Origin: Thermoplasmatota archaeon
GTDB taxonomy: Archaea > Thermoplasmatota > Thermoplasmata > UBA10834
Length of the DNA stretch: 64,000 nt
Assembly (NCBI GenBank): GCA_018818785.1
Contig: JAHIRF010000005.1
Coordinates: forward strand, 62,001 to 126,000
Reading direction: 5' to 3'
Shown: one piece after another, positions 1,920 through 54,713 of the stretch
Position numbering within the stretch: the first letter of the stretch is position 1
How the letters are laid out: every line of letters begins with the position of its first letter
Notes under the pieces: model-generated
What the model was told of the DNA's origin: nothing
Seen by the model: only the letters and a program-made list of their open reading frames with translations
The model's database searches: none
Translations under genes and position numbers: made by a program

Positions 1920-2435
1920 CTAACCGTTGAAGTTGATGGAAGTCATCGAGCTTGCGGTCGGACCGTATATCAGGGTTATCGTGTAGGTGCTTGTGCTCAA
2001 GAACGAGACTGCAGTCACGGAGAAATAGTCGCCCTGGTTCGCGTATCCGTTACCAGATAGATCCGTCACGCTCAGAGACACCACAAGAGTGCCCAGAGTC
2101 ACTGTCCCGAAGTAGTTCCTGTCACCAGCGCCATCATCGAGGTCGCCCTGTGTGAGGTTTGTCCAACCCTCGTCGTTCGTTCCGTCAGATATCAGAACGT
2201 CTACATCTGTCCACAACGTCTCAATGCTCACGGCTGCCAAGGTCAACTTCACACCATTCGTGATGGTGCCCTTTGTCAGCTGAGTGGTCGGTGTCTGCTG
2301 GCTAGTACCTCCGAATCCCAGAACCATCACGTACAAGACGGCTGCTAGGACGACGGTGATCGCGACCATCAAGATGGTAGCAATAACCGGAGATACTGCT
2401 TCGGCATCCTTGCGGATTGCCCAAATTCGCTTCAT
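1920..2435 (-). CDS. Type IV pilin / archaellin-like protein with class III signal
   Basis: The N-terminus, MKRIWAIRKDAEAVSPVIAT followed by an uninterrupted hydrophobic run ILMVAITVVLAAVLYVMV, is the pattern of archaeal pilins with the pilin_N (DUF1628) motif. Cleavage by a PilD/PibD-type peptidase is expected just before the hydrophobic helix. The remaining 130 residues are Thr/Ser/Gly/Asp-rich and beta-like (for example TLGTLVVSLSVTDLSG), as expected for the exposed pilin head. Expression signals are strong: a TATA box and the SD AGGAGG 7 nt before the ATG. Three KaiC-like genes lie 262 nt upstream on the same strand. No pilus assembly ATPase is in the window. Confidence 0.88.
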   Translation of the reverse strand: MKRIWAIRKDAEAVSPVIATILMVAITVVLAAVLYVMVLGFGGTSQQTPTTQLTKGTITNGVKLTLAAVSIETLWTDVDVLISDGTNDEGWTNLTQGDLDDGAGDRNYFGTVTLGTLVVSLSVTDLSGNGYANQGDYFSVTAVSFLSTSTYTITLIYGPTASSMTSINFNG

Positions 2436-2493
2436 GTTATGTCCTCCTTGCGAACCTTTCGGCCCGCTTGAAGGTATTAACCGCTGGGCAGGG

Positions 2494-2503
2494 CTTATAT
2501 AGC
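2494..2503 (-). promoter_or_regulatory. Promoter of the pilin gene
   Basis: On the minus strand GCTATATAAG reads as a near-ideal archaeal TATA box about 60 nt before the pilin ATG, and the transcript would carry the strong ribosome site AGGAGGACATAACATG. Most genes in this window lack such an SD, so this is a well-expressed leadered gene. Confidence 0.7.
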
Positions 2504-2591
2504 TTTCCGGCTGGTTATCATCATCGAGCGTTCACGACTTCGCTCAATGCCGAAGTGGAACATCTGGCTATGTCGCAAAATCATGAAGCTA

Positions 2592-2610
2592 AAGAAGACT
2601 TAGTCTTCTT
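2592..2610. terminator. 8-bp perfect hairpin between the KaiC cluster and the pilin promoter
   Basis: AAGAAGAC-TTA-GTCTTCTT is a perfect 8-bp inverted repeat with a 3-nt loop. It lies after the last KaiC-like gene and before the pilin TATA box. It may end the KaiC transcript or serve as a palindromic operator of the pilin gene. The sequence does not decide between them. Confidence 0.45.
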
Positions 2611-2697
2611 ACTACAGTATTATCGTTTAAATAACGTCGCTTTTTGCCGAAACGTCGCCATTGTGATAACGGCGTTACTGGTTCCAGATGGACTTTT

Positions 2698-3423
2698 TCA
2701 GCAGGTCCGGATGCCCGTCTGATCGAATGTGCACGGCAGGATCCCGACTAAGCCTGGCCTGTTTCGGACCTTCTGCACGACGATGTACTTCTTGAACTCC
2801 TGTCCGATCTTCTCCCTGTCGAGCTCGAATATCACGTCCGCGAGGTCCTCAATGCTGCTCTGGATACGGGACTCGTGGACGCCCTTGAGCATAGTCATCA
2901 AAGTGACGCTCTCCGAGTGCTGCGTATGCGCCTTTATCGTGCGCATGGCCATGAGCACCTCCGAGCTGTCATAGTTCTCGAGGAAGAAGTCAAGCGAGTT
3001 GATGACCACCCTGAAAGGAGGTGTGATCTTCGATATCTCATATGCGAGGAAGGTCAGGAAGTTCTCTTCCTTGCCCGCGTCCTTGTCCTTGATCCGTCGG
3101 ATATCCTGGAGCGTTATACCTTCCTGCCTGAACTTGCTGATCTCAAGTTTCTTTGCGAGCACGTTCTCATAGTACTTCGTGCCGATATTGACTATGTTGA
3201 TATCCGTCCTCCACCCGTGCTCGCGCATTATGCTCATGACGTCCTCGTCCCTCTCCGTTGACGTGAAGTAGGTCACCGGCTCCTGTCCCGTGGATGCGAA
3301 CTGCTTCGCGAAGAATTCTGCTCCAGATCCAGGACCCCCTACGACCAGGACGGTCGATCCCTTCAGGACGCCTCCGCCGAGGTGGTCGTTGAGAGCGGGT
3401 ATGCCCATGCTCGTCAGGTTCAT
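2698..3423 (-). CDS. KaiC/RecA-like protein with lost Walker A lysine
   Basis: The 241-residue product begins like a KaiC domain (SMGIPALNDHLGGGVLKGSTVLVVG). Where the P-loop should be, it reads GGPGSGAEFFAKQF, so the lysine and following Thr/Ser of GxGK(S/T) are replaced by Ala-Glu. A Walker B-like strand is present (FRVVINSLDFFLENY). The C-terminus (LADVIFELDREKIGQEFKKYIVVQKVR) keeps the usual KaiC layout. ATP hydrolysis is therefore doubtful, and a sensory or scaffolding partner of the intact ATPase at 4012-4767 is more likely. It follows the middle gene after 1 nt. The target is unknown. Confidence 0.8.
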   Translation of the reverse strand: MNLTSMGIPALNDHLGGGVLKGSTVLVVGGPGSGAEFFAKQFASTGQEPVTYFTSTERDEDVMSIMREHGWRTDINIVNIGTKYYENVLAKKLEISKFRQEGITLQDIRRIKDKDAGKEENFLTFLAYEISKITPPFRVVINSLDFFLENYDSSEVLMAMRTIKAHTQHSESVTLMTMLKGVHESRIQSSIEDLADVIFELDREKIGQEFKKYIVVQKVRNRPGLVGILPCTFDQTGIRTC

Positions 3424-3424
3424 C

Positions 3425-4015
3425 TCAGTCCCCCGGCTTGCCTATTCGTATGACCTGGTCGCAGACCAGGTTCACCAGGTTCACGATCTCGGGTGTCGAG
3501 TGCTCCTCGACAGACAATATGATCGTGTATGCATCCTTCGCCCTGAGCCCGGACACCAATATGTGAAGGAACTCGGAGAGGATCCAGTTGTTGTTGTGGA
3601 TAGAGAGGGAGTTGATCGAATCTAGCACGACCAGCTTGTTCTTCGACGGTGACATCCTTATGAGATATTCGACTTTCAGCATGATGTTCTCGAGCATCGT
3701 GGGACTCTCGACCAGGGATGCGTGCTCGTCCTTCTGCGCGGCCGTGGTGCCCATCATTATGTGCGAGATGCAATCGACGAAGTACATGCGAGATGTGTCA
3801 ATGTCGAGGGCATCCAACACTCGTTTTATGGCCTCGAACGAGATGGTCGCCGTGACGTATATCGTGTCCATGTCCTTCTTGCGGGCGAAGATGTCCAGCA
3901 CCCCGCGCATGACTTCGAGGTAGCTATCGACGCTCATCTGCAACGAGACTGCTGACCCTGGGGAGAGTTCGGAAAGCTGTGCGGCTATCCCCTGCGGGGT
4001 ATTGGCGTCGCTCAT
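3425..4015 (-). CDS. P-loop-less KaiC-related protein (middle gene of the cluster)
   Basis: The 196-residue protein has no Walker A. It keeps later strands of the RecA fold: IYVTATISFEAIKRVLDALDIDTSRMYFVDCISHIM, a Walker B-like KNKLVVLDSINSLSI and a KaiC-like SEFLHILVSGLRAKDAYTIILSVEE. It resembles the truncated KaiC-like and DUF835/DUF7504-type proteins that accompany KaiC ATPases in archaea. The exact family was not verified. Its start overlaps the stop of the upstream ATPase by 4 nt (ATGA), so the two are almost surely translated together. Confidence 0.75.
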   Translation of the reverse strand: MSDANTPQGIAAQLSELSPGSAVSLQMSVDSYLEVMRGVLDIFARKKDMDTIYVTATISFEAIKRVLDALDIDTSRMYFVDCISHIMMGTTAAQKDEHASLVESPTMLENIMLKVEYLIRMSPSKNKLVVLDSINSLSIHNNNWILSEFLHILVSGLRAKDAYTIILSVEEHSTPEIVNLVNLVCDQVIRIGKPGD

Positions 4016-4767
4016 GTCCCAGCACTCCCTCCTTTCAGAAGTGGCACGAGAAGCACACCTACCGGTGTCAGATCGAGCACGTATTTCGCTCGGCTGTGCA
4101 TGGTTCCGCGCATCTTGATCACCTGCAGTGTGCGCAGGAGGTCTCCTCTCCGTTCCAGGTTCGACATGAGCATGATACCGTCGGCAATTGCCTCCTCGAC
4201 GCCGAACAGGGAGTATGCATTGGAATGCGGTGCCACCTCACTCACAAGTATCGATGTGCACCTGAGGTCCGAGAGCGCCTTGCTCAATTTGAGGACGAAG
4301 TCGCGTATCTTCTCCGGCGTCTTGAGCTTGTAGCATACGGAAGTGATGGAATCTATGACCAACCGCTTGGTGTTCAGCTCCCTGACCAGGCTGCTTATCG
4401 ACGCGACGAGGAGGTCGATCTCCTCCATCGACAGCTCCGCCTTGGTCATGCCCAGCCGATCATACATGGCGGGGAGGTCGACGAAGACCAGTTTGCCCGA
4501 CTTCAATAGGTCCTTATCGAAGAATCTGTAGGGTATTATGTTCGCCAGGAGTTTCTCGGAGTTCTCGGTCACTGATATGAACAACGAGTTCTCGTTGTTC
4601 AGAGCGCCGTGGATGAGAAACTCGAGAGCGAGAGATGTCTTGCCAGTGCCACAACTGCCAGTGAGAATGACAGTGTTGTCTGTGGGTATGCCACCATACA
4701 ATATGGTGTCGAGACCGTCGATACCTGTCGCGCAGCGGACGCGATCACCTGTTCTCGGCTCCATCAT
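4012..4767 (-). CDS. KaiC-like ATPase with intact P-loop (first gene of cluster 1)
   Basis: A 251-residue single-domain KaiC homologue. The KaiC signature TGIDGLDTILYGGIP is near residue 15, Walker A GSCGTGKT is at residues 37-44, a Walker B strand NTKRLVIDSITSVCY lies near residue 135, and LQVIKMRGTMHSRAKYVLDLTPVGV closes the domain as in KaiC proteins. Archaeal one-domain KaiC proteins are signalling ATPases. ArlH of the archaellum belongs to the same superfamily. It heads a three-gene unit whose other members have lost the P-loop. A divergent promoter region separates it from the HPS gene. Confidence 0.88.
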   Translation of the reverse strand: MMEPRTGDRVRCATGIDGLDTILYGGIPTDNTVILTGSCGTGKTSLALEFLIHGALNNENSLFISVTENSEKLLANIIPYRFFDKDLLKSGKLVFVDLPAMYDRLGMTKAELSMEEIDLLVASISSLVRELNTKRLVIDSITSVCYKLKTPEKIRDFVLKLSKALSDLRCTSILVSEVAPHSNAYSLFGVEEAIADGIMLMSNLERRGDLLRTLQVIKMRGTMHSRAKYVLDLTPVGVLLVPLLKGGSAGT

Positions 4768-41727: not shown

Positions 41728-43074
41728 TCAACTCTCTTTCGCTTGTCTGTATTTCAGTATGCGGACAAGACCGTACGAAGCGACCGCGACGCTATTCACA
41801 ACGACAAGTATAATCAGGGAGATTTCGGTCCTATCCGGCTCCGAGGATGGTATGAGCGCATGTACTTCTGCCCCGCAGCTATAGTAGACAGTTTCATCAC
41901 TACCCAAGCAAACGAAGCTGTAACCATCTAGATCAGCGCGATGCCTCCAAGCAACGGCCCCATCAGAATCGATCCTCTTGATTGAGGAATCATCCTTGGC
42001 CAGCAGACCTCCTGAATGGAATCTATCCACCATAATGCCGAGGAAAGGTTTCACCCAGAGTATTGCCCCGCTAGGATCCAATGAATAAGAGTATCTGTCG
42101 TCGACATCATCGCAGAAGAGCTTGCCCTCGACATCTACTATGGCCAGTGAGAGTTGATAGCTCCCCGGTGAGAGATGATCAGGATTGTCGGAGTAGTGCA
42201 GGAGTGTTTTCCATTCTATAGAGCCATTCAATAGGCTCAGTGCATAGACACTGATTGCGGTGGTCTCATTGTCGATACCCTCCTTCCTCACCTCATACAT
42301 TCTTGTCCCGTCTGAGCTCAGAGGGCGATATGGAGGGTAATTGTAGTAATCTCCCTCCTCTATGTAGGCTAGAATCCCGTCCTTGGTAATACCCACCAGG
42401 TAGCTGCTGTAGTCTTGAAATCCAATCATTTCGAATGTGCCATTCTCGGCCACTCTCTGGTTTGTCCAAATCGTGTCGGTGATTGGCACGTCCATGCTCC
42501 AGACCTCCGACCCTGTGCTCGAGATAGCTATTATTCGGTCGACAGTGACCACCCACTCATCGGAGATGTAGTTGTACTCATTATCGTGGTGATACGCAAT
42601 CACTCGACCATCAGGGTAGATCCCCCACAGTTCCAAGGTGCCATTTGGCGTCACGAAACTCCATTTGAATTCACCGTTGGCATCAAGCGCCGTGATGTTG
42701 GACCACGCTGCCATAGAAGGACTGCTTGTATTCCAATCCTGGTAGTAGTATCCTCCATCAGGCCCTTCCACAATTTGCGGGCGCGCATTTGTATCTGCCC
42801 TCCACAGGAGCATACCATTCGCATCGATGGCCAAGAAGCCCGACCAATCATCCAGGATTAGATTGCCCCTGCTATCGAAATAGCATCCCCAGCTCAGCTC
42901 CCGCTCGTTCCCGTAAGAATCGAGATTGCGATACACCCATCTGTCTTCCATCCCCCCCCATTCAGAATCATAGGCAATGATAGCCGCACCGATGAAGGCA
43001 GATGATACTAGCAGAAGTACAAGAGCAATTGCCGCAACTCCAATAGCAGAAGCGCCAATCCTCACCGATTCCAC
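41728..43074 (-). CDS. Membrane-anchored PQQ-type beta-propeller protein
   Basis: The 448-residue protein has an N-terminal helix (IGVAAIALVLLLVSSAFIGAAIIAY) and a C-terminal one (EISLIILVVVNSVAVASYGLVRIL). Between them about six propeller strands follow the pattern A-x-D-x-x-G-x-x-x-W: GFLAIDANGMLLWR, ITALDANGEFKWSF, IIAISSTGSEVWSM, YSLDPSGAILWV and RIDSDGAVAWR. It is a cell-surface propeller, probably for binding or assembly. No PQQ site is implied. The codon use is more A/T-rich than its neighbours. Confidence 0.78.
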   Translation of the reverse strand: MESVRIGASAIGVAAIALVLLLVSSAFIGAAIIAYDSEWGGMEDRWVYRNLDSYGNERELSWGCYFDSRGNLILDDWSGFLAIDANGMLLWRADTNARPQIVEGPDGGYYYQDWNTSSPSMAAWSNITALDANGEFKWSFVTPNGTLELWGIYPDGRVIAYHHDNEYNYISDEWVVTVDRIIAISSTGSEVWSMDVPITDTIWTNQRVAENGTFEMIGFQDYSSYLVGITKDGILAYIEEGDYYNYPPYRPLSSDGTRMYEVRKEGIDNETTAISVYALSLLNGSIEWKTLLHYSDNPDHLSPGSYQLSLAIVDVEGKLFCDDVDDRYSYSLDPSGAILWVKPFLGIMVDRFHSGGLLAKDDSSIKRIDSDGAVAWRHRADLDGYSFVCLGSDETVYYSCGAEVHALIPSSEPDRTEISLIILVVVNSVAVASYGLVRILKYRQAKES

Positions 43075-45918: not shown

Positions 45919-46114
45919 GACCGAACCAACCTGCTCGTCACTATATTATGATTTGTATATCCGCCAACAGCCATGAAAGTCCGGGGCAATCCTCGTGGAT
46001 ATGAATTCGGGCCATCTCATTGTGCATAAACGTGTACGGTGTCCCATATCCTCCGCCAACGTTTATATGACCGGAACGGTGTTTTCACTGCCGCCACATC
46101 ACGGAGGCAACCAA

Positions 46115-46363
46115 ATGGATGATGAGAAGGGAGCAAAGGTCCGTTTTGAGACGTTGAGCGCTGAGAAGATTCCTTTTGGAAAGAACAATTTCTTGGAAGT
46201 CGCGCGAAAGAAGGCAATAACTGATGAGGGCGACAGTGAGTTCATCTCTGTGTCCAGGGGTTACTTCCTTCCGGATGGTAGCGAGAAATACAAGAAATCG
46301 ATCACCATCCCGGACGAACCCGCGATCAAGACCTTCGTGACGGAGAAAATAAACACGCTCTGA
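46115..46363 (+). CDS. Conserved-looking small protein, 82 residues
   Basis: A soluble, mildly charged protein: KVRFETLSAEKIPFGKNNFLEVARKKAI, then EGDSEFISVSRGYFLPDGSEKYKKSITIPDEPAIKTFVTEK. It has beta strands and one helix but no motif I can name. It is likely a real gene: a promoter ACGTTTATATGACC lies upstream and a clear SD CGGAGG 8 nt before ATG 46115. The track start at 45995 would include the promoter. A hairpin follows its stop. Confidence 0.75.
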   Translation: MDDEKGAKVRFETLSAEKIPFGKNNFLEVARKKAITDEGDSEFISVSRGYFLPDGSEKYKKSITIPDEPAIKTFVTEKINTL

Positions 46364-46973: not shown

Positions 46974-47114
46974 CACGGCTCCAGATATCTTCTGATGGTA
47001 GATTAACTTCTCCCGGAGGAAACAAAGCGTATCACTGAGAACTGGAGAAGGGCCAACCAAAAGTTATAAGTCTCGACTCATTGATAGATGGGACCCCCGG
47101 TATAGGTGAATATC

Positions 47115-47522
47115 ATGGAGCAACCAGACCGCGCCATAAAGATGCGCAAGGAGGAGCTCGTAGAGATCAAGCGGCTTTACGAAACAGTCATGACTTTTGC
47201 ATCCCACGGAATGTTCTACAGGAGCGGAAGGATAATGGGCAATCGTATCGTCAAGACGACGGGCACTGACTTGGGCAGGATACGAGAAGTCCTGATCAAG
47301 GAAGGCTGGGCGATCGACCTCGTCTTTGAAGGCGATACCGTGTCCATATCCGGCTCTATCGAGGTGCACAGTTCTGACATGCCGACCTGTCATATGCTCA
47401 GGGGCATACTCGCAAAGGTGTTCGAGGAACGCACAGGCAAGGATGTGTATTGCCACGAGCGGAAGTGCGTATCCAAAGGAGACGATAAATGCGTCTTCAT
47501 CATAGATACAGAGGTGCTGTAG
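47115..47522 (+). CDS. V4R-domain putative ligand-binding protein
   Basis: The 135-residue protein starts from ATG 47115 after the SD AGGTGAATATC. It has the V4R layout: MTFASHGMFYRSGRIMGNRIVK, LIKEGWAIDLVFEGDTVSISGSIEV, and the Cys-rich ending TGKDVYCHERKCVSKGDDKCVFII (Cys residues placed as in V4R 4-vinyl-reductase-like sensors). V4R proteins bind hydrophobic or metal-linked ligands and often sit beside regulators. It is the first gene of KaiC cluster 2 and probably senses the input. The KaiC gene follows without gap. Confidence 0.82.
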   Translation: MEQPDRAIKMRKEELVEIKRLYETVMTFASHGMFYRSGRIMGNRIVKTTGTDLGRIREVLIKEGWAIDLVFEGDTVSISGSIEVHSSDMPTCHMLRGILAKVFEERTGKDVYCHERKCVSKGDDKCVFIIDTEVL

Positions 47523-48197
47523 ATGTCTAGGAAGACCTCTGGAATACCAGGTCTGGATGGAATGCTCCAGGGAGGTTTCCCGTTCCCATCCGCAGTGCTC
47601 GTCGCTGGCGAGCCAGGTACTGGAAAGACCACCTTCGCGGTCCAGAGCCTGTTCCACGGTGCCCGCGAGGGCGAGAAGGGTCTTTACATAACTGCAATAT
47701 CGGAACCGCAATGGCTCGTGCAGAAATTCCTTTCATCGTTCTCATTCTACGACCAGCAGCTGGTCGAGCGTGGGATTGTGAACTTCATCGATATCGGACC
47801 GACGCTCATGAAGAACCCGAGCGATATGCTGGGCACTATAAAGAAGCAGATCGAACAGCACCATCCCGCCAGGATAGTGATCGACCCCATCACTCCGATG
47901 ACCGATATGCTGCAATGGCGTGGCGAGACGAGGGAGTTCATGCACGAACTGTTCGCTTACCTGAAAGCGTTCGAATCGCTCGCGATCATCACCGCGGAGC
48001 TGTCATACGATGACATCTCCCACAGCCAGGAATCTTACATGGTCGATGGAGTCGTGATGCTCTCCTACCCTGAGGAAGAGAAGGTCAGGCGGAAGTTCCT
48101 CGAAGTCTTGAAGATGAGGGGGACCAAGCACACGACTGGAAGACAGTTGATCGACATCACCGACGAGGGGTTGGCTGTCCAGGCAGGCTTGAGGTAA
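47523..48197 (+). CDS. KaiC-like ATPase with intact P-loop (cluster 2)
   Basis: The 224-residue single KaiC domain has the start TSGIPGLDGMLQGGFPFPSAVLVAGEPGTGKTTF (Walker A GEPGTGKT near residue 29), LYITAISEPQWLVQKFLS, Walker B-like ARIVIDPITPMTD and the KaiC-type ending RKFLEVLKMRGTKHTTGRQLIDI. Both the P-loop Lys and Thr are present. It is translated with V4R and DUF835 partners. Archaeal KaiC proteins of this size include ArlH and signal-transduction ATPases. Confidence 0.9.
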   Translation: MSRKTSGIPGLDGMLQGGFPFPSAVLVAGEPGTGKTTFAVQSLFHGAREGEKGLYITAISEPQWLVQKFLSSFSFYDQQLVERGIVNFIDIGPTLMKNPSDMLGTIKKQIEQHHPARIVIDPITPMTDMLQWRGETREFMHELFAYLKAFESLAIITAELSYDDISHSQESYMVDGVVMLSYPEEEKVRRKFLEVLKMRGTKHTTGRQLIDITDEGLAVQAGLR

Positions 48198-48205
48198 GTC
48201 ATTTC

Positions 48206-48715
48206 ATGAGTGGCGGATATAGCCCTGCTCTCATCAACGGCAACTCGTACCTGTTCACGAAGAAGGGCGTCGAACAGGCCTATGATGCCATGAAGAAGAT
48301 GCTCGCTGAGGGCAGGCGTGGGCTTGTGATCACCCGCACCCATCCGAGTCGGGTGCAGCAGCTGTACGGCTTGGACTGCCCCATCATGTGGATCGCCAAG
48401 AACATCAAGACGACCACAACCACCAGTGGTGTGATCAACCTCGAACCGACTAGGTTGATGAAGATACACAGCACGATCTCGGATTTCATAAAGGCGAACC
48501 CCGGAGCGACAGTCCTCCTCGACGGTCTTGAGTACCTGATAACCGAGAACGGTTTCTCGACAGTCATGAAGGCGATACAACTCACGAACGAGGAGGTGGC
48601 GATGTCCGGAGCCCTCCTTCTTGTTCCAGTCGACCCGAGAACCCTGGAGACGCAACAGTTGGGATACCTCGAGCGCGAGTTCTCTCTGCCAGAGGATAAC
48701 AACAGGGACCGATGA
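48206..48715 (+). CDS. DUF835-family protein
   Basis: The 169-residue protein has INGNSYLFTKKGVEQAYDAMKKMLAEGRRGLVITRTHPSRVQQLYGL, then TTTTTSGVINLEPTRLMKIHSTISDF and the most typical DUF835 part ATVLLDGLEYLITENGFSTVMKAIQLTNEEVAMSGALLLVPVDPRTLETQQLGYLEREF. DUF835 proteins have a P-loop-less RecA-like fold (the LLDGLEYL strand resembles a Walker B). They often accompany KaiC ATPases in archaea. It overlaps the CobA gene by 4 nt. Confidence 0.82.
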   Translation: MSGGYSPALINGNSYLFTKKGVEQAYDAMKKMLAEGRRGLVITRTHPSRVQQLYGLDCPIMWIAKNIKTTTTTSGVINLEPTRLMKIHSTISDFIKANPGATVLLDGLEYLITENGFSTVMKAIQLTNEEVAMSGALLLVPVDPRTLETQQLGYLEREFSLPEDNNRDR

Positions 48716-49290
48716 ATCAGCCCAAGCGATTTTCTAGTCGGACGCTACTCCCATTCTCGATGTCTGAGGTAAAGGGCTTGGGCAAGATCCACGTCATCAC
48801 TGGGCCTGGCAAGGGCAAGACCACCGCAGCTTTCGGGTCGGCCATACGTGCAGCCGGCCACGGCATCCGAGTCGGCATTGTGCAGTTCATGAAAGCCGAC
48901 GGCAGCGGAGAGGTCATCTCTGCAAGACATCTTGACAACATCGAAGTAGTGCAGTTCGGGACTGGCAACTTCATCGATTTTGGCCACGCTCGCGAGCACG
49001 ATACCGCGAAGGCTGGCGAGGGTTTGCGACAGGCCGAGAAATTCTTGACATCCGGTGATTATGGTCTCGTGATCCTGGATGAGATAAGCGTCGCGGTCGA
49101 CTTCGGATTGTTGAGCGCGGATGAGGTGCTCGCGGTCATCCGGTCGAGGAAAAGTGGCGTTGAGGTCATCCTGACGGGTAGGAACGTGCCGAAGTCATTC
49201 GTGTCTGAAGCAGACTATGTCTCCTTCATCCAAAGCGTGAAGCATCCGTTCGATAAAGGCGGCGAGGCCCGACGTGGGATAGAATGGTAG
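48712..49290 (+). CDS. cobA: Cob(I)yrinic acid a,c-diamide adenosyltransferase (CobA/BtuR)
   Basis: The 192-residue protein has the CobA P-loop VITGPGKGKTTAAFGSAIRAAGHG, VQFMKADGSGEVISARHLDNIEVVQFGTGNFI, Walker B GLVILDEISVAVDFGLL and EVILTGRNVPKSFVSEAD. The enzyme puts the adenosyl group on cobalamin precursors. ATG 48712 overlaps the DUF835 stop; ATG 48760 (residue 17) is where family similarity starts and may be the true start. It is translationally coupled to the KaiC cluster. Confidence 0.92.
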   Translation: MNQPKRFSSRTLLPFSMSEVKGLGKIHVITGPGKGKTTAAFGSAIRAAGHGIRVGIVQFMKADGSGEVISARHLDNIEVVQFGTGNFIDFGHAREHDTAKAGEGLRQAEKFLTSGDYGLVILDEISVAVDFGLLSADEVLAVIRSRKSGVEVILTGRNVPKSFVSEADYVSFIQSVKHPFDKGGEARRGIEW

Positions 49291-49293
49291 CGG

Positions 49294-50427
49294 TCAGCCC
49301 TTCTTATCCTTGAGGAAGAGGAGGTAGCGTGCCTCCTCTGTCGTGAAGACCGTGTTCTTCTTAAGCCCTTCATAATCGCCATCCGCGAGCATCCTCAGGA
49401 TCATGGGTTGACCTCGGCTCATCATGAATATCCTTCTGAACGCGTCCTTCTCTATCTTCTCGTTACCCAGGAGTCTCATGGCGCTCTTCTCATCGAGCCC
49501 TTTGATTCTGAGCACCCTGACGGTCTCGTCATCGACATGCTTCTTGTGGTAGAACCAGTTATATGCTGGCGTCTCCTCCCTCGCGGTCACTATGATCTTC
49601 GTCCTTCCGTCGGATTCGATCATGGTCGTGAGGAACTCGACGACCTCTTCGGTTACTGTGAAGAAATCATCGAAAATTATGACGCTCTCCTCCAGATCAA
49701 GGGCCCGCTCATTCTCCGCGGATTGTCCTGTCACCTTCTCGGCGAATCGACGCAGCTTAACAAGGATCTCTTCGAGGGAGGTCTGCGAGTCCAGAGGGAC
49801 CCATAGCGCATTGGTCTCGTCATGGGTCTGTATCAACCTTCTTGCGATGGTGGATGTGCCGGAGCCGCGATTGCCCAAGATGACCATTGCACGCGAATCA
49901 GACCTGAGGAAGTCTTCCCCACTCCTAAGCTCATCATCTCTTCCATAGAACTCTACAGGCTCTGGGGAATCGTCCATCATCCTGATGGGCTCAGTCTGCT
50001 TCTTCCCTATGTCGACGACCCCATCTTTTATGCGTGATACAATGGCAAGAGCCTTCTTCTTGCCCACCAGCTCCTCGATCTGAGCGCCTGTCATGGATTC
50101 CGCACTCTCTCCGCGCTGGACTTTGAGATGGGAATTCGAGATATCTCTCCAAAGCTCCGAGGCGGTCTTGACACCTTCTGCGGTGACCGCATAGACACTC
50201 ATCCTTCTCTCATGACCCGTGACTCGGGCCCTCGACTCATCGACAAAACCCTGCTTCATTAGCCCCTTGACCGCTCTCGGGGCATGGGTTCGTGATATGC
50301 CGATGGCCGCTGCTATCCCTGCCTGTGTACACTCCGACGGGAATTCCGTAGGTGGTACGTCGGTAGCGAACCTGAGCAGGTGTAGAAGCACCCTATCATT
50401 GACGCTGAGCTGGCCAGCTTCAGACAT
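49294..50427 (-). CDS. Winged-helix/NTPase fusion regulator with atypical Walker A
   Basis: From ATG 50427 the protein has 377 residues. It has a MarR-like winged helix (LSVNDRVLLHLLRF...CTQAGIAAAIGISRTHAPRAVKGLMKQGFV, residues 8-65) and an AAA/STAND-like NTPase (EFYGRDDEL near 160). The P-loop reads VILGNRGSGTSTIARRLI, with Thr in place of the P-loop Lys. Walker B is SVIIFDDFFTV. A sensor-like C-terminal part is helical. ATG 50427 lies about 27 nt after TTATATAAG, so a leaderless start fits. It is divergent from the giant surface protein, with 174 nt between them, and may control it. Confidence 0.8.
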   Translation of the reverse strand: MSEAGQLSVNDRVLLHLLRFATDVPPTEFPSECTQAGIAAAIGISRTHAPRAVKGLMKQGFVDESRARVTGHERRMSVYAVTAEGVKTASELWRDISNSHLKVQRGESAESMTGAQIEELVGKKKALAIVSRIKDGVVDIGKKQTEPIRMMDDSPEPVEFYGRDDELRSGEDFLRSDSRAMVILGNRGSGTSTIARRLIQTHDETNALWVPLDSQTSLEEILVKLRRFAEKVTGQSAENERALDLEESVIIFDDFFTVTEEVVEFLTTMIESDGRTKIIVTAREETPAYNWFYHKKHVDDETVRVLRIKGLDEKSAMRLLGNEKIEKDAFRRIFMMSRGQPMILRMLADGDYEGLKKNTVFTTEEARYLLFLKDKKG

Positions 50428-50601
50428 CAACCCGCGAAATACCCTTGAGCTTATATAACCGTGCGGTCGCGATCGGTACCTGACACATGGTGGCCGACCT
50501 CTCGTAAGGTAGTTGGTAATGACCGCAACACGTTTATATACGCACTTATACGTTTGAAACCTAAGCTGGCAGGGCACTCCATCTCCCCGGAGGATGCATC
50601 G
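50428..50601. promoter_or_regulatory. Divergent promoter region of the winged-helix/NTPase and giant surface protein genes
   Basis: Two TATA-like boxes face outward: TTATATAAG on the minus strand (near 50452-50460), about 27 nt before ATG 50427, and CGTTTATATACGCACTTATACG on the plus strand (50530-50550), about 60 nt before ATG 50602, which has an SD GGAGGATG. The 70 nt between the boxes would suit shared control. Confidence 0.6.
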
Positions 50602-53600
50602 ATGAGTCTGAAACTATTCAAGAGAAAAGCATGGTCTGATGATAGCGCTGTTTCCGAAATTATCGGCAATATACTCATACTAATGATAACTGTGATGCTG
50701 TTCAGCGGGATCATGGTATTCGTCAATCAGATGCCCGTCCCTGAATTGGCCACGAAGACCGATTTCGTCGGCAGCGTTTCGTTCGATGCTTCGGGTACGG
50801 AGGCGACCCTGACCATCACTCACTCCGGAGGTGCAGTACTTCCTGCCAATTACACGACCGTTTTCATCCTCATCGACGACGTGAGCTACACATACAAACT
50901 CTCTGAGGATGCAGAATTCACCCATGATTATTGGGCCACTGGTCTTGATTGGACCAAGACCTTCAATAGCACTTCATATTCAAGCGTAATAACCGTTACA
51001 GTCATCGACGATGTCAAGCACTCTGCCGTCTGGGTCAGCCAGCTCAGTGGCGGAATGGGTGGCGGACCACCTACCATCCTCCAGAGATATGTCGATTCCA
51101 ATGTGAACACCCCGACTGCGGATTACATCAAAGCCGGAGATGATTTCTCACTGTTCGTCAAGGTCATCGATCTTGATGGCGATCTGGACACTACCACGAG
51201 TGGTGTCTGGGTCGATTCGAGAAGTATAGGTGGCGTCGAAAATGATACGTACGAGGTGGCAAGCGGAGGATGGTTCCGCTGGGATTACACGGATGTGACC
51301 GATGATGTGGTCAGTGTCGATGGAAAGGTTCTCATCATCCATGCTAAGGACACCGCAGGTCACGAATCCATATCCAATTTCAAGATATCTGTAATCGTGC
51401 TTCCTGTTGAACCCGGTGATGTGACCCTTATCGAAACTCCAACCGACGAAGGGGGCTTGCCGTCATATCTGACCTTCTCATCACCCATACTCGGCTCAGG
51501 CTACGGCGTCTATGGCGAGAACTTGACGAACAACACGCCTACGGAGAGGGCTGATGTGAACGATGCGAGGACAACCTTCGACAAGGATGAGAGAGTGTTC
51601 GTCCGGGTCGCGAGCACCCAGATGACCAACATCATGGGCCGGAACGATTTGACCCTTAAGGACACAAGGACGGGCCTCACTTACATCCCGACCTTCTTCA
51701 ACCAGAGCGCTGTCAATGTCGATAACCCGTTCTATGTCTATGGATCGGCCGGATCAGCCCAGATATATCAAGCCAAGTTCAACACGTCCGGTCTGCCACC
51801 GAGTGCATACAGTATGAACATTTACCTGAGAAGTGCAGGTACTGACGAGGTCGTGTTCCAGACGGATATTACGCTCATAATCCAGCAGGAAGGCTCACCT
51901 ATCACCTTCATCCCGCAAATCTATCTGTTCTCGGATGCAACGATGACCATTCCTTTCGGGACAAAGACGACTCCATACGATGTCAACGGTGGGACGCATA
52001 CCATTTACGCAAGCATGAATGTGCAGGATGCCCAGAGCACCCCGCCATACCCTGTTGTCGGTGAGATACGGATCGAGGATTTGACCGGTGGGGCGGAGAT
52101 ATACGGAACCCCACCTGCTGGTGCGATGATCAGCAACTTCGTGCAGGATGCGACCAATGCATCACACCAGAGATACAGTTTCACGATAGATCTGAGAATC
52201 AACAATGCAGACCAATGGCTCTCTGGCAGCAACACTTATACCCTACGCATATCCAGTTTCAGTGACAATAATGAGGGGATATACAGCCTCGCGAAGCAGG
52301 TCTATATAAAGGCCAGCGTCAGCAAGATGGACTTCTTCACTGCGACGAACGGCATCTATTCGACCAGAGGTGGCAGTACCAACTTCGTGAACCCTGAATA
52401 CATCTACTATATCGAGAACAACAACTTCTTCACGACCAGGGTATTGCACGACCAATCCAATTCCCCCAGTGCAGCAGCTATGTACTACATGACCGCGATG
52501 GCCGTTGGCGACCTCGATGGTGACGCCGATGACGACCTCATAGCGGCCCAGTTCAAGCCGTCAGGGTCAGGTTATGTCGCAGAGGGGCATCTGCTATACT
52601 TCGAGAACTCCATGAACTCCTATGGTAATTGGCAAGCTCCATCGTTCATCACCAGAGCAAGTGCGGACGATACGACCGTGAAGATCGAATGGATTGCCGC
52701 AGGAGACACCAATGGCGATGGCGATATCGATATCATGTATGCAACGGAGGCGCACAAGTTGTTCATCTACAACAACACATATGGTGCAGCAGCGGTGCGA
52801 TTCCTCAGTTCCGCATATGGTTCGGGCAACGATGGCATCAGGAAGATCGATCTGAAGGACATGAACGGTGACGATGCTGCCGATCTCATCGTTCTTGCGA
52901 ACGGAATCGTGTACGTCTATGACATCAAGAATTGGAGGACCACCCCGATCGCCACGATCCAGGCGACCAGCGGCACTTCGAATATCGAAGACTTCGATAT
53001 CGCGGACGTCAATGGCGATGGGATGCTTGATGTCCTCACTGCGGATCCGAACAGTGCCTCTGGTAATAGCATCGAAGGCGTGTGGGTCAATTACTACAGA
53101 GAATCCACATCCCCAACGGTGAAGTTGCTGGACCAGACGTTCACTCCCGTTGTGACATATGGGGCTATCTCCCCGAGCACTCTCCCGACTTCGGTGACCT
53201 ATACCCAAGTCAATGACACTCAGGCCACGGCTGTTCAAGAGAGCGCAGTTTCTGGTATTGCATCCGCGACATTCAAGGTCCAAGCTCTCACGGCTGACAA
53301 AGACCAGATATTGCATGTGACCGCTAGAACGGTCGGGAACGACGAATCATTCTATATCTGGTATTCGATCGATTCGACGAACGGCATCGATGGCAAGTTC
53401 ACCCCAGTGATCGTGGTGACAAATGGCACCACTAATTGGAGGGAATACACATTCAGACTACCATCCAATGTCGCAGGTCACACCATGTTCATACGCGTGA
53501 CGGACTCGCTCAACTCATACGGTTCTCTCCAAGATTCCCTCGAACTGAACTATGTCTCAGTCCATTCGAGCGTGTTCGGATCGTATATGACGACCAGGAC

Positions 53601-54036
53601 GAATATCGTGACTGTCACGCCTGTATACGCATGCGTTAGAGCGATGAATATCGATGGCATCGGTTCACTCGAGATAGTTGCAGCGAAGAACGGCAATTGG
53701 TCGACATTCTATGCATCGGGCACAGGGCAATATGTCAGCGGCTGGAGCGTCACGAACTCGTACCTCTATATCTACGGTCCCGGTATGACATTGGTATCGC
53801 CGACATTATTCACCGTCGCTGATGTGAATGGTGACAGCTACTCCGATGTCGTGGCGTCCTTCACTCCGAGCAGTATCGGCAGTGCCTCTCAGATCTCCGT
53901 GATCGGCGTGTACATCAATATCGACAACTACTGGTATGTCCAGATCAAAGACCATTACGCTGGCTACCTCTCAGGAACCGAGACAGGATCGATTCTCTAC
54001 TTGCTGGTATCCGATGTCATGCACGAAAGTTCCTAG
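50602..54036 (+). CDS. Giant pilin-like surface protein with FG-GAP/VCBS-type calcium repeats
   Basis: From ATG 50602 the protein is 1144 residues. Its N-terminus, KAWSDDSAVSEIIGNILILMITVMLFSGIMVFVNQM, is a pilin_N-like (DUF1628) class III segment. Ig-like beta units follow in the first 600 residues (TEATLTITHSGGAVLPANYTTVFILIDDVS and others). About six calcium-loop repeats come later (DLDGDADDD, DTNGDGDID, DMNGDDAAD, DVNGDGMLD, NIDGIGSLE, DVNGDSYSD), like integrin-type propellers. It is an adhesin or pilus-anchored protein, which is inference. It lies next to KaiC cluster 2 and a divergent regulator. The track start (50461) is upstream of the promoter. Confidence 0.88.
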   Translation: MSLKLFKRKAWSDDSAVSEIIGNILILMITVMLFSGIMVFVNQMPVPELATKTDFVGSVSFDASGTEATLTITHSGGAVLPANYTTVFILIDDVSYTYKLSEDAEFTHDYWATGLDWTKTFNSTSYSSVITVTVIDDVKHSAVWVSQLSGGMGGGPPTILQRYVDSNVNTPTADYIKAGDDFSLFVKVIDLDGDLDTTTSGVWVDSRSIGGVENDTYEVASGGWFRWDYTDVTDDVVSVDGKVLIIHAKDTAGHESISNFKISVIVLPVEPGDVTLIETPTDEGGLPSYLTFSSPILGSGYGVYGENLTNNTPTERADVNDARTTFDKDERVFVRVASTQMTNIMGRNDLTLKDTRTGLTYIPTFFNQSAVNVDNPFYVYGSAGSAQIYQAKFNTSGLPPSAYSMNIYLRSAGTDEVVFQTDITLIIQQEGSPITFIPQIYLFSDATMTIPFGTKTTPYDVNGGTHTIYASMNVQDAQSTPPYPVVGEIRIEDLTGGAEIYGTPPAGAMISNFVQDATNASHQRYSFTIDLRINNADQWLSGSNTYTLRISSFSDNNEGIYSLAKQVYIKASVSKMDFFTATNGIYSTRGGSTNFVNPEYIYYIENNNFFTTRVLHDQSNSPSAAAMYYMTAMAVGDLDGDADDDLIAAQFKPSGSGYVAEGHLLYFENSMNSYGNWQAPSFITRASADDTTVKIEWIAAGDTNGDGDIDIMYATEAHKLFIYNNTYGAAAVRFLSSAYGSGNDGIRKIDLKDMNGDDAADLIVLANGIVYVYDIKNWRTTPIATIQATSGTSNIEDFDIADVNGDGMLDVLTADPNSASGNSIEGVWVNYYRESTSPTVKLLDQTFTPVVTYGAISPSTLPTSVTYTQVNDTQATAVQESAVSGIASATFKVQALTADKDQILHVTARTVGNDESFYIWYSIDSTNGIDGKFTPVIVVTNGTTNWREYTFRLPSNVAGHTMFIRVTDSLNSYGSLQDSLELNYVSVHSSVFGSYMTTRTNIVTVTPVYACVRAMNIDGIGSLEIVAAKNGNWSTFYASGTGQYVSGWSVTNSYLYIYGPGMTLVSPTLFTVADVNGDSYSDVVASFTPSSIGSASQISVIGVYINIDNYWYVQIKDHYAGYLSGTETGSILYLLVSDVMHESS

Positions 54037-54086: not shown

Positions 54087-54713
54087 CTAGAGCGCTTCCT
54101 GTATCAACTCGCTGACTTCTTGCGCCCTCTCAAGCTCCAATACTGCTAGAAGCTCCTTCGAGTTCTTCGAAGCATCCAGTATGCCATTGGCCATGGCTTC
54201 GACCCGCTTGCTCTCTATGAGTCTGAACCCTTGCATGCCGTTTATCACACGGTCCCAGAGCATCACGAACTCCTCAGGTGTTTCCGCATTGAAACTTCTG
54301 TGCCTGAGAGCCCAGGTCCTCGTGGAATGTCTGAAGAGGGCGGAGCCCGTGACGGCCGCACAATAGAGGTCCGTGTAGCTGACCTCATCCAGATCCACCG
54401 GTACGAGGGGTATTCCGAAATGGTCCGATAGCTCCACGGCTGCCACATAACATGGTGGCGGCGCAGCGACCTCTCCATATCTGCCCAATCTGGAAACATA
54501 TATCTCCTCATATCTCGAGAGTTCAGGCTCGTAGTCATCGGGCAGGTTCCTCAAACCTTCTATCTCTTCCTTCGAGAGTGAGATCGCTACCTTGTTCGGC
54601 TGCACCTTCTCGAAAGCATCCTTGACCTTGTCCGTCTCGGATTTCAGACCTTTTATCACAGGGAGGATGTGGATCATGTGGCCATTCGCATTTATGGTGG
54701 TCATCGCTTTCAT
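54087..54713 (-). CDS. TraB/PrgY-like protein (tentative)
   Basis: The 208-residue protein is soluble: NGHMIHILPVIKGLKSETDKVKDAFEKVQPNKVAISLSKEEIEGL, then ALFRHSTRTWALRHRSFNAETPEEFVMLWDRVINGMQ and a helical end. The start recalls the TraB domain pattern (histidine near the front, a Glu-rich helix and a strand ending in a charged residue), but the match is weak. It is last in the cdc48-HTH-this gene string, overlapping the HTH gene by 4 nt (ATGA). Confidence 0.6.
   Translation of the reverse strand: MKAMTTINANGHMIHILPVIKGLKSETDKVKDAFEKVQPNKVAISLSKEEIEGLRNLPDDYEPELSRYEEIYVSRLGRYGEVAAPPPCYVAAVELSDHFGIPLVPVDLDEVSYTDLYCAAVTGSALFRHSTRTWALRHRSFNAETPEEFVMLWDRVINGMQGFRLIESKRVEAMANGILDASKNSKELLAVLELERAQEVSELIQEAL

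Follow-up and report, generated by a model that had tools for sequence, protein, structure and literature searches.

A V4R-KaiC-DUF835 signalling operon beside a CobA-giant pilin block in a Thermoplasmatota archaeon: two units probably joined once

Do genes that stand together in an archaeal chromosome, and keep their order among relatives, also work together? The question is raised by a run of six genes in the window, by which we mean the whole 64,000-nucleotide stretch analysed here, from an archaeal genome of 1.97 Mb in 12 contigs. An initial annotation named the six as V4R, KaiC, DUF835, CobA, a winged-helix (wHTH) NTPase and a giant Pilin_N/FG-GAP protein, and all six are present and match the families named (Pfam; Table 1). 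It went on to read them as a sensor, ATPase and surface-output system with CobA coupled in. Part of that reading stands, since V4R, KaiC and DUF835 do form a unit; the ties to the pilin and to CobA are not supported, since the units occur apart in four other families (f13, f15, f19 and f20, described below). We think it probable that two units, V4R-KaiC-DUF835 signalling (unit A) and CobA/wHTH-NTPase/giant pilin (unit B), lie side by side here and were joined once, in the ancestor of the order.

Table 1. Genes and candidate control elements of the locus, in window coordinates
Feature	Position	Strand	Remarks
Promoter-like element AAAAGTTATAAG	47059..47070	+	Serves the V4R-KaiC-DUF835 operon; kept among the f1 genomes listed
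V4R protein, 135 aa	47115..47522	+	Pfam V4R 6.7e-15
KaiC-family ATPase, single domain, 224 aa	47523..48197	+	Pfam KaiC 6.6e-45
DUF835 protein, 169 aa, no P-loop	48206..48715	+	Pfam DUF835 6.2e-29
TTTTCTA element	48730..48736	+	About 23-24 nt 5' of the CobA start; in 16/16 f1 sequences listed
CobA/BtuR ATP:corrinoid adenosyltransferase, 176 aa	48760..49290	+	Pfam 6.5e-57; revised start
wHTH-NTPase, 377 aa	49294..50427	-	Weak wHTH and AAA matches; revised, most likely start 50427, leaderless
TATA box of the wHTH-NTPase gene, conserved TTATATAA	50451..50458	-	23 nt before the start
Palindrome GGTAATGACC, consensus GGTAnnKACC	50515..50524	.	Candidate operator; families f1, f2, f15, f19
TATA box of the giant pilin gene GTTTATATACG	50532..50542	+	
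Giant Pilin_N + FG-GAP surface protein, 1144 aa	50602..54036	+	Pilin_N 6.1e-10, FG-GAP_3 7.9e-15; divergent from the wHTH-NTPase gene

The three genes of unit A are arranged in tandem, with gaps of 0 bp between V4R and KaiC and 8 bp between KaiC and DUF835. A Shine-Dalgarno-like GAGGTG or GAGGT lies within the tail of each preceding gene, and a single conserved promoter-like element stands ahead of all three. The footprint 5' of V4R reads ACCAAAAG[GT]TATAAGT.. in the genomes listed of f1, the family of the window genome (19 genomes), which with its sister family f2 (two genomes) makes up the order compared. The V4R start first annotated is upheld by conservation among orthologues. The tandem layout, kept order-wide, and a V4R-DUF835 fusion on another contig of the genome bear out the proposal that V4R, KaiC and a P-loop-less DUF835 form one conserved set. 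Within the genus, identity is 93% for KaiC, 82-83% for DUF835 and 81% for V4R, versus 54-57% for CobA, 48-51% for the wHTH-NTPase and 53% for the pilin, which points to stronger constraint on the triad than on its immediate neighbours. Identity to f2 is 79% for KaiC, about 60% for V4R and 46-47% for DUF835, and that of KaiC to another family of the class is 69%. A single scan of genome contigs with the V4R alignment gave 20 close loci, all in Thermoplasmatota-type MAGs that match genomes already in the comparison; Euryarchaeota archaeon RBG_13_57_23 is one of the Thermoplasmata MAGs among the named relatives.

What sort of KaiC does this operon encode? The protein belongs to PF06745, and its Walker A motif is intact (GEPGTGKTT; the form GxPGTGKTT is kept in 12 aligned orthologues), as is a conserved KMRG/KMRGT motif. 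Where cyanobacterial KaiC has the catalytic glutamate pair of TFEE, the alignment reads I59-S60, then E61; that pair is the mark of the clock-type enzyme and not of the Pfam KaiC family. From these motifs the protein is likely to bind ATP and might plausibly hydrolyse it, though the shifted glutamate pair makes hydrolysis uncertain. A circadian KaiABC system would comprise a double-domain KaiC with KaiA and KaiB, and what is found is a single domain in an operon that holds neither a kaiA nor a kaiB gene. As to DUF835, it belongs to PF05763 and its sequence lacks GxxxxGK[ST]. Its AF2 model (pLDDT 87) matches ArlH/FlaH, PH0284 and KaiC, with Foldseek E-values of 3e-5 to 4yds (FlaH) and 5e-5 to 2dr3, the KaiC/RecA fold expected of an inactivated KaiC; hhalign, working from shallow profiles, gave no sequence link between DUF835 and KaiC. 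By its predicted structure, DUF835 is an inactive, P-loop-less KaiC fold.

DUF835 has been listed as an iKaiC, that is, an inactivated KaiC (PMC5847659), and the pairing of KaiC with iKaiC, as well as links of KaiC to pili, has been proposed before (PMC5847659, PMC4858521). We place unit A, as a KaiC/iKaiC signalling operon with V4R for its input, in this known class, whose members were put forward earlier as signalling hubs of archaea. With the KaiC/iKaiC (DUF835, MEDS) signalling of Makarova, Galperin and Koonin (2017), as far as the citing paper PMC5847659 conveys it, unit A shares an active KaiC with an inactivated partner; it differs from the class as presented there in having a separate V4R protein as the first gene of the operon. 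ArlH/FlaH and cyanobacterial KaiC have their fold in common with KaiC and DUF835 alike, and the differences are the single KaiC domain, the shifted catalytic glutamate, an operon without KaiA or KaiB, a position outside any archaellum operon and the missing P-loop of DUF835. Genome-wide there are 15 KaiC/RecA-type and 14 DUF835 matches, besides four for V4R, two for Pilin_N and one for CobA. KaiC/iKaiC signalling is therefore expanded in this organism, and one such operon is not exceptional there. At L090:9683-11094 (-), contig C9, lies the nearest KaiC paralogue noticed in this genome, which also has an LSEP motif and overlaps the gene of a 241-aa protein that has no Pfam match and resembles another inactive KaiC.

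What might the V4R protein sense? It falls in PF02830, and both MopR and MJ1460 are matched in profile comparison. The AF2 model (pLDDT 85) matches MJ1460, MopR and PoxR, the TM-scores being moderate (about 0.58) and the rmsd high. Residues C95, E118, C121 and C129 are kept without exception across 19 orthologues. Their pattern, Cys-x22-Glu-x2-Cys-x7-Cys, which aligns with MopR by profile, has the zinc-ligand spacing of the MopR/DmpR type, the same as in DmpR (PMC7264223). W68 is invariant in the same 19 sequences, the His/Trp residues of the phenol pocket being aligned without confidence. In the aromatic sensors MopR, PoxR and DmpR, V4R controls an AAA+ ATPase. The V4R fold, the zinc-ligand spacing and the association with an ATPase are common to them and to unit A, but here V4R is a separate protein and the ATPase is of the KaiC/RecA type.

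A second known relative suggests a different signal. In MsvR, the V4R redox regulator of methanogens, the redox cysteines are C206, C232 and C240, and C206 controls redox-dependent DNA binding (PMC3729527). The spacing of C95, C121 and C129 (26, 8) is identical, and the NCBIfam MsvR model matches the V4R region at 5e-9, a score far below the model's cut-off. V4R might on these grounds be a thiol redox sensor, and not a sensor of an aromatic or other small ligand, in which the three cysteines oxidise and so alter the contact with KaiC. The same cysteines serve both readings, however, and the invariant E118 completes the MopR/DmpR set of zinc ligands and favours a metal site. Unlike MsvR, the present protein carries no fused DNA-binding domain and its partner is an ATPase. 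We regard the thiol redox sensor as rather doubtful.

How would a ligand- or redox-gated V4R reach its ATPase? The fusion mentioned above (338 aa, contig C7, L088:8902-9915 (+)) is a direct hint that V4R and DUF835 work together. From the operon structure, the fusion and the analogy of V4R-gated AAA+ regulators, we infer that V4R would act on KaiC and that DUF835 would bind KaiC. On the reading that we favour, the Zn/Cys-bearing fold of V4R would sense a small molecule or the redox state, and V4R would act in trans on the ring-forming KaiC ATPase, to which DUF835 would bind, or which it would cap, as adaptor or output. The full model, a diffusible V4R regulator gated by ligand or redox state and acting in trans on a ring of single-domain KaiC, with DUF835 co-assembled or capping, is tentative, and we trust it somewhat less than evenly. 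Another protein of the genome (L004:1144-2982 (+), contig C1) has an N-terminal V4R-like region that scores below the cut-off, with PAS and histidine-kinase regions recognised by eye.

How far does the arrangement of the two units reach? V4R, KaiC, DUF835 and CobA follow one another in this sequence in 18 of the 19 f1 genomes (in the nineteenth, G016, V4R lies inside a run of N) and in both f2 genomes, and the wHTH-NTPase and giant pilin follow CobA in f1 and f2 wherever the contig extends. The whole neighbourhood is syntenic in these two families, including genes for a DNA polymerase D small subunit-like protein, an endonuclease-IV-like TIM protein, an Rce1-like protein, ORF 45995, g54, an HTH regulator and CDC48, so that conserved gene order inside the order is uninformative on coupling. 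One step outside it, the tie of the triad to CobA and the pilin breaks. In f15 (G033, G052) and f19 (G043), CobA, the wHTH-NTPase and the giant pilin stand together without the triad, and the outer flanks are the same, from the polymerase subunit-like gene through the TIM, Rce1, ORF 45995 and g54 to the HTH gene. In f20 (G054), CobA precedes the pilin, at which the contig ends, again without the triad. The converse is seen in f13 (G031), where V4R-KaiC-DUF835 sits beside RtcB-like and HD-domain genes without CobA or pilin; the CobA and giant pilins of that family lie on contigs other than this one, and a wHTH gene adjoins each of them (L086, L192, L221). The V4R-KaiC pair of f25 (G104) adjoins a Cdc6-like gene (L152), also without CobA or pilin, and f16 has a KaiC orthologue without V4R. 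In this comparison of V4R-KaiC-DUF835 neighbourhoods, the check proposed with the initial annotation, absence of the arrangement from close relatives, named there as its refutation, does not occur within the order but does occur for the CobA and pilin links just beyond it.

What history accounts for this distribution? The simplest, and the most likely, is that the ancestor of f1 and f2 gained the triad by insertion 5' of CobA. Unit B would be the older conserved block, to which unit A was added once, and unit A would since have stayed by general synteny. One might suppose the reverse, that the class began with the triad beside CobA and that f15, f19 and f20 lost it from the slot. KaiC orthologues do occur in other families, and the CobA tree, which groups f1 with f2 (92/77) and leaves the backbone open, is too weak to polarise the change. 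Loss, however, would require several events against one gain; the slot 5' of CobA is filled by different genes across families, an acetyltransferase-like gene in f15, a 116-aa ORF in f19 and CYTH in f20; and the triad of f13 and the pair of f25 sit in unrelated surroundings. We infer insertion over loss, and consider the ancestral triad unlikely. A small conserved protein of about 110 aa is encoded beside CobA in f19 (L200:6019-6366 (-)) and beside the KaiC orthologue in f16 (L153:9019-9351 (+), L154:10098-10430 (-)); the f19 copy has no Pfam match, and the likeness among the copies was judged by eye.

CobA is a full-length member of its family (193 bits versus a Pfam cut-off of 25.7; NCBIfam PRK05986 at 8.1e-54, the score being just under the cut-off), and the only copy found in the genome. 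It had been thought to overlap DUF835, a claim that hinges on an ATG at 48712; conservation among orthologues begins at 48760, 44 bp past the DUF835 stop. That conserved start, with the conserved TTTTCTA lying between, leads us to reject a translational overlap of DUF835 and CobA. One possibility is that TTTTCTA acts as a TATA-like box for a leaderless CobA promoter, its spacing to CobA being the same as that between the leaderless wHTH gene and its TATA box (23 nt); the other is that it forms the U-tract terminator of the upstream operon. Either would argue against tight DUF835-CobA coupling. In f15, where there is no triad, TTAAATAG occupies a similar position 5' of CobA. V4R, CobA, the wHTH-NTPase and the pilin each appear to own a conserved promoter-like element. 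We propose that CobA is a housekeeping enzyme.

Beyond CobA, the divergent wHTH-NTPase/giant pilin pair is present as first described, with the start and length of the pilin correctly called. The wHTH and P-loop NTPase matches are weak, under most of the curated cut-offs, and conservation among orthologues sets the most likely start. In f1, f2, f15 and f19 the palindrome precedes the giant pilin TATA box with unchanged spacing, the f15 variant GGTAACTACC having a C at the neighbour of the K position; extended by a conserved 3' CAAC, GGTAATGACC has its sole exact match in the genome here. Such a conserved palindrome beside the pilin promoter makes it likely that the wHTH-NTPase regulates the giant pilin locally and without KaiC, and it would control this surface protein by binding the palindrome as operator. 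The pilin resembles archaeal type IV pilins with large C-terminal domains in its Pilin_N signal and hydrophobic segment, and differs from them in its length, its FG-GAP repeats and its divergent wHTH-NTPase partner. Three other window proteins, at 41731-43074 (-), 54090-54713 (-) and 45995-46363 (+), had no family match in the searches made; the latter two are kept in the same block across several families.

Could the whole locus nevertheless be an integrated system, with the wHTH-NTPase and giant pilin under the control of the triad and CobA coupled in? The arrangement is kept across f1 and f2, a link between KaiC proteins and type IV pili has been proposed in archaea (PMC4858521), and in Haloferax both motility and cell shape are affected by CirA, a homologue of KaiC (PMC13286277). 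Module 1 of the window (1920-4767 (-)) is itself a conserved KaiC-pilin cluster: an active KaiC (4012-4767) with intact Walker A, two inactive KaiC-like proteins, one with a degenerate P-loop (2698-3423) and one without a P-loop (3425-4015), and a small Pilin_N protein (1920-2435). KaiC by small tandem pilins recurs in f7, f13, f15, f17 and f19 (L175, L179, L181, L184, L189, L190), with an inactive KaiC in four of these five families and only the active KaiC seen in f7; this association is real and widely conserved. Both modules do pair an active KaiC, active as judged by motif, with a P-loop-less partner, as had been noted, but the view that the second repeats the theme of the first does not hold, as the conserved link of KaiC to a small pilin in module 1 has no supported counterpart in module 2. 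There the pilin keeps CobA and the wHTH-NTPase, not KaiC, in f15 and f19, so that the adjacency of KaiC and pilin does not exceed general synteny. Unit B without the triad in three families (as CobA-pilin in f20) leads us to reject KaiC-giant pilin coupling, and f13, with the triad alone, and the separate promoter elements point the same way. We judge an integrated system improbable.

The name V4R derives from a tetrapyrrole enzyme family, and CobA, the sole such gene found in the genome, lies directly downstream of the triad in f1 and f2, so that V4R might sense cobalamin or another tetrapyrrole and tie KaiC signalling to CobA activity, but this is most improbable and finds no support in the family comparison, CobA being in place without V4R in f15, f19 and f20, the triad doing without CobA in f13, and CobA having its own start and promoter-like element and being one of the block's less conserved genes.

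What, then, does the locus offer? Adjacency to surface-protein genes can be historical, and here the pilin goes with the wHTH-NTPase and a specific palindrome. KaiC proteins are abundant in archaea; most of them lack an assignment, and for few is the input known. The V4R-KaiC-DUF835 operon is a compact, highly conserved candidate, in which a zinc/cysteine V4R sensor, an ATPase and an inactive partner come together as small, apparently soluble proteins. If the tentative model of V4R acting in trans on a KaiC ring is true, the operon would encode a three-protein ATPase switch that takes the MopR-type sensor outside its sigma54 context.
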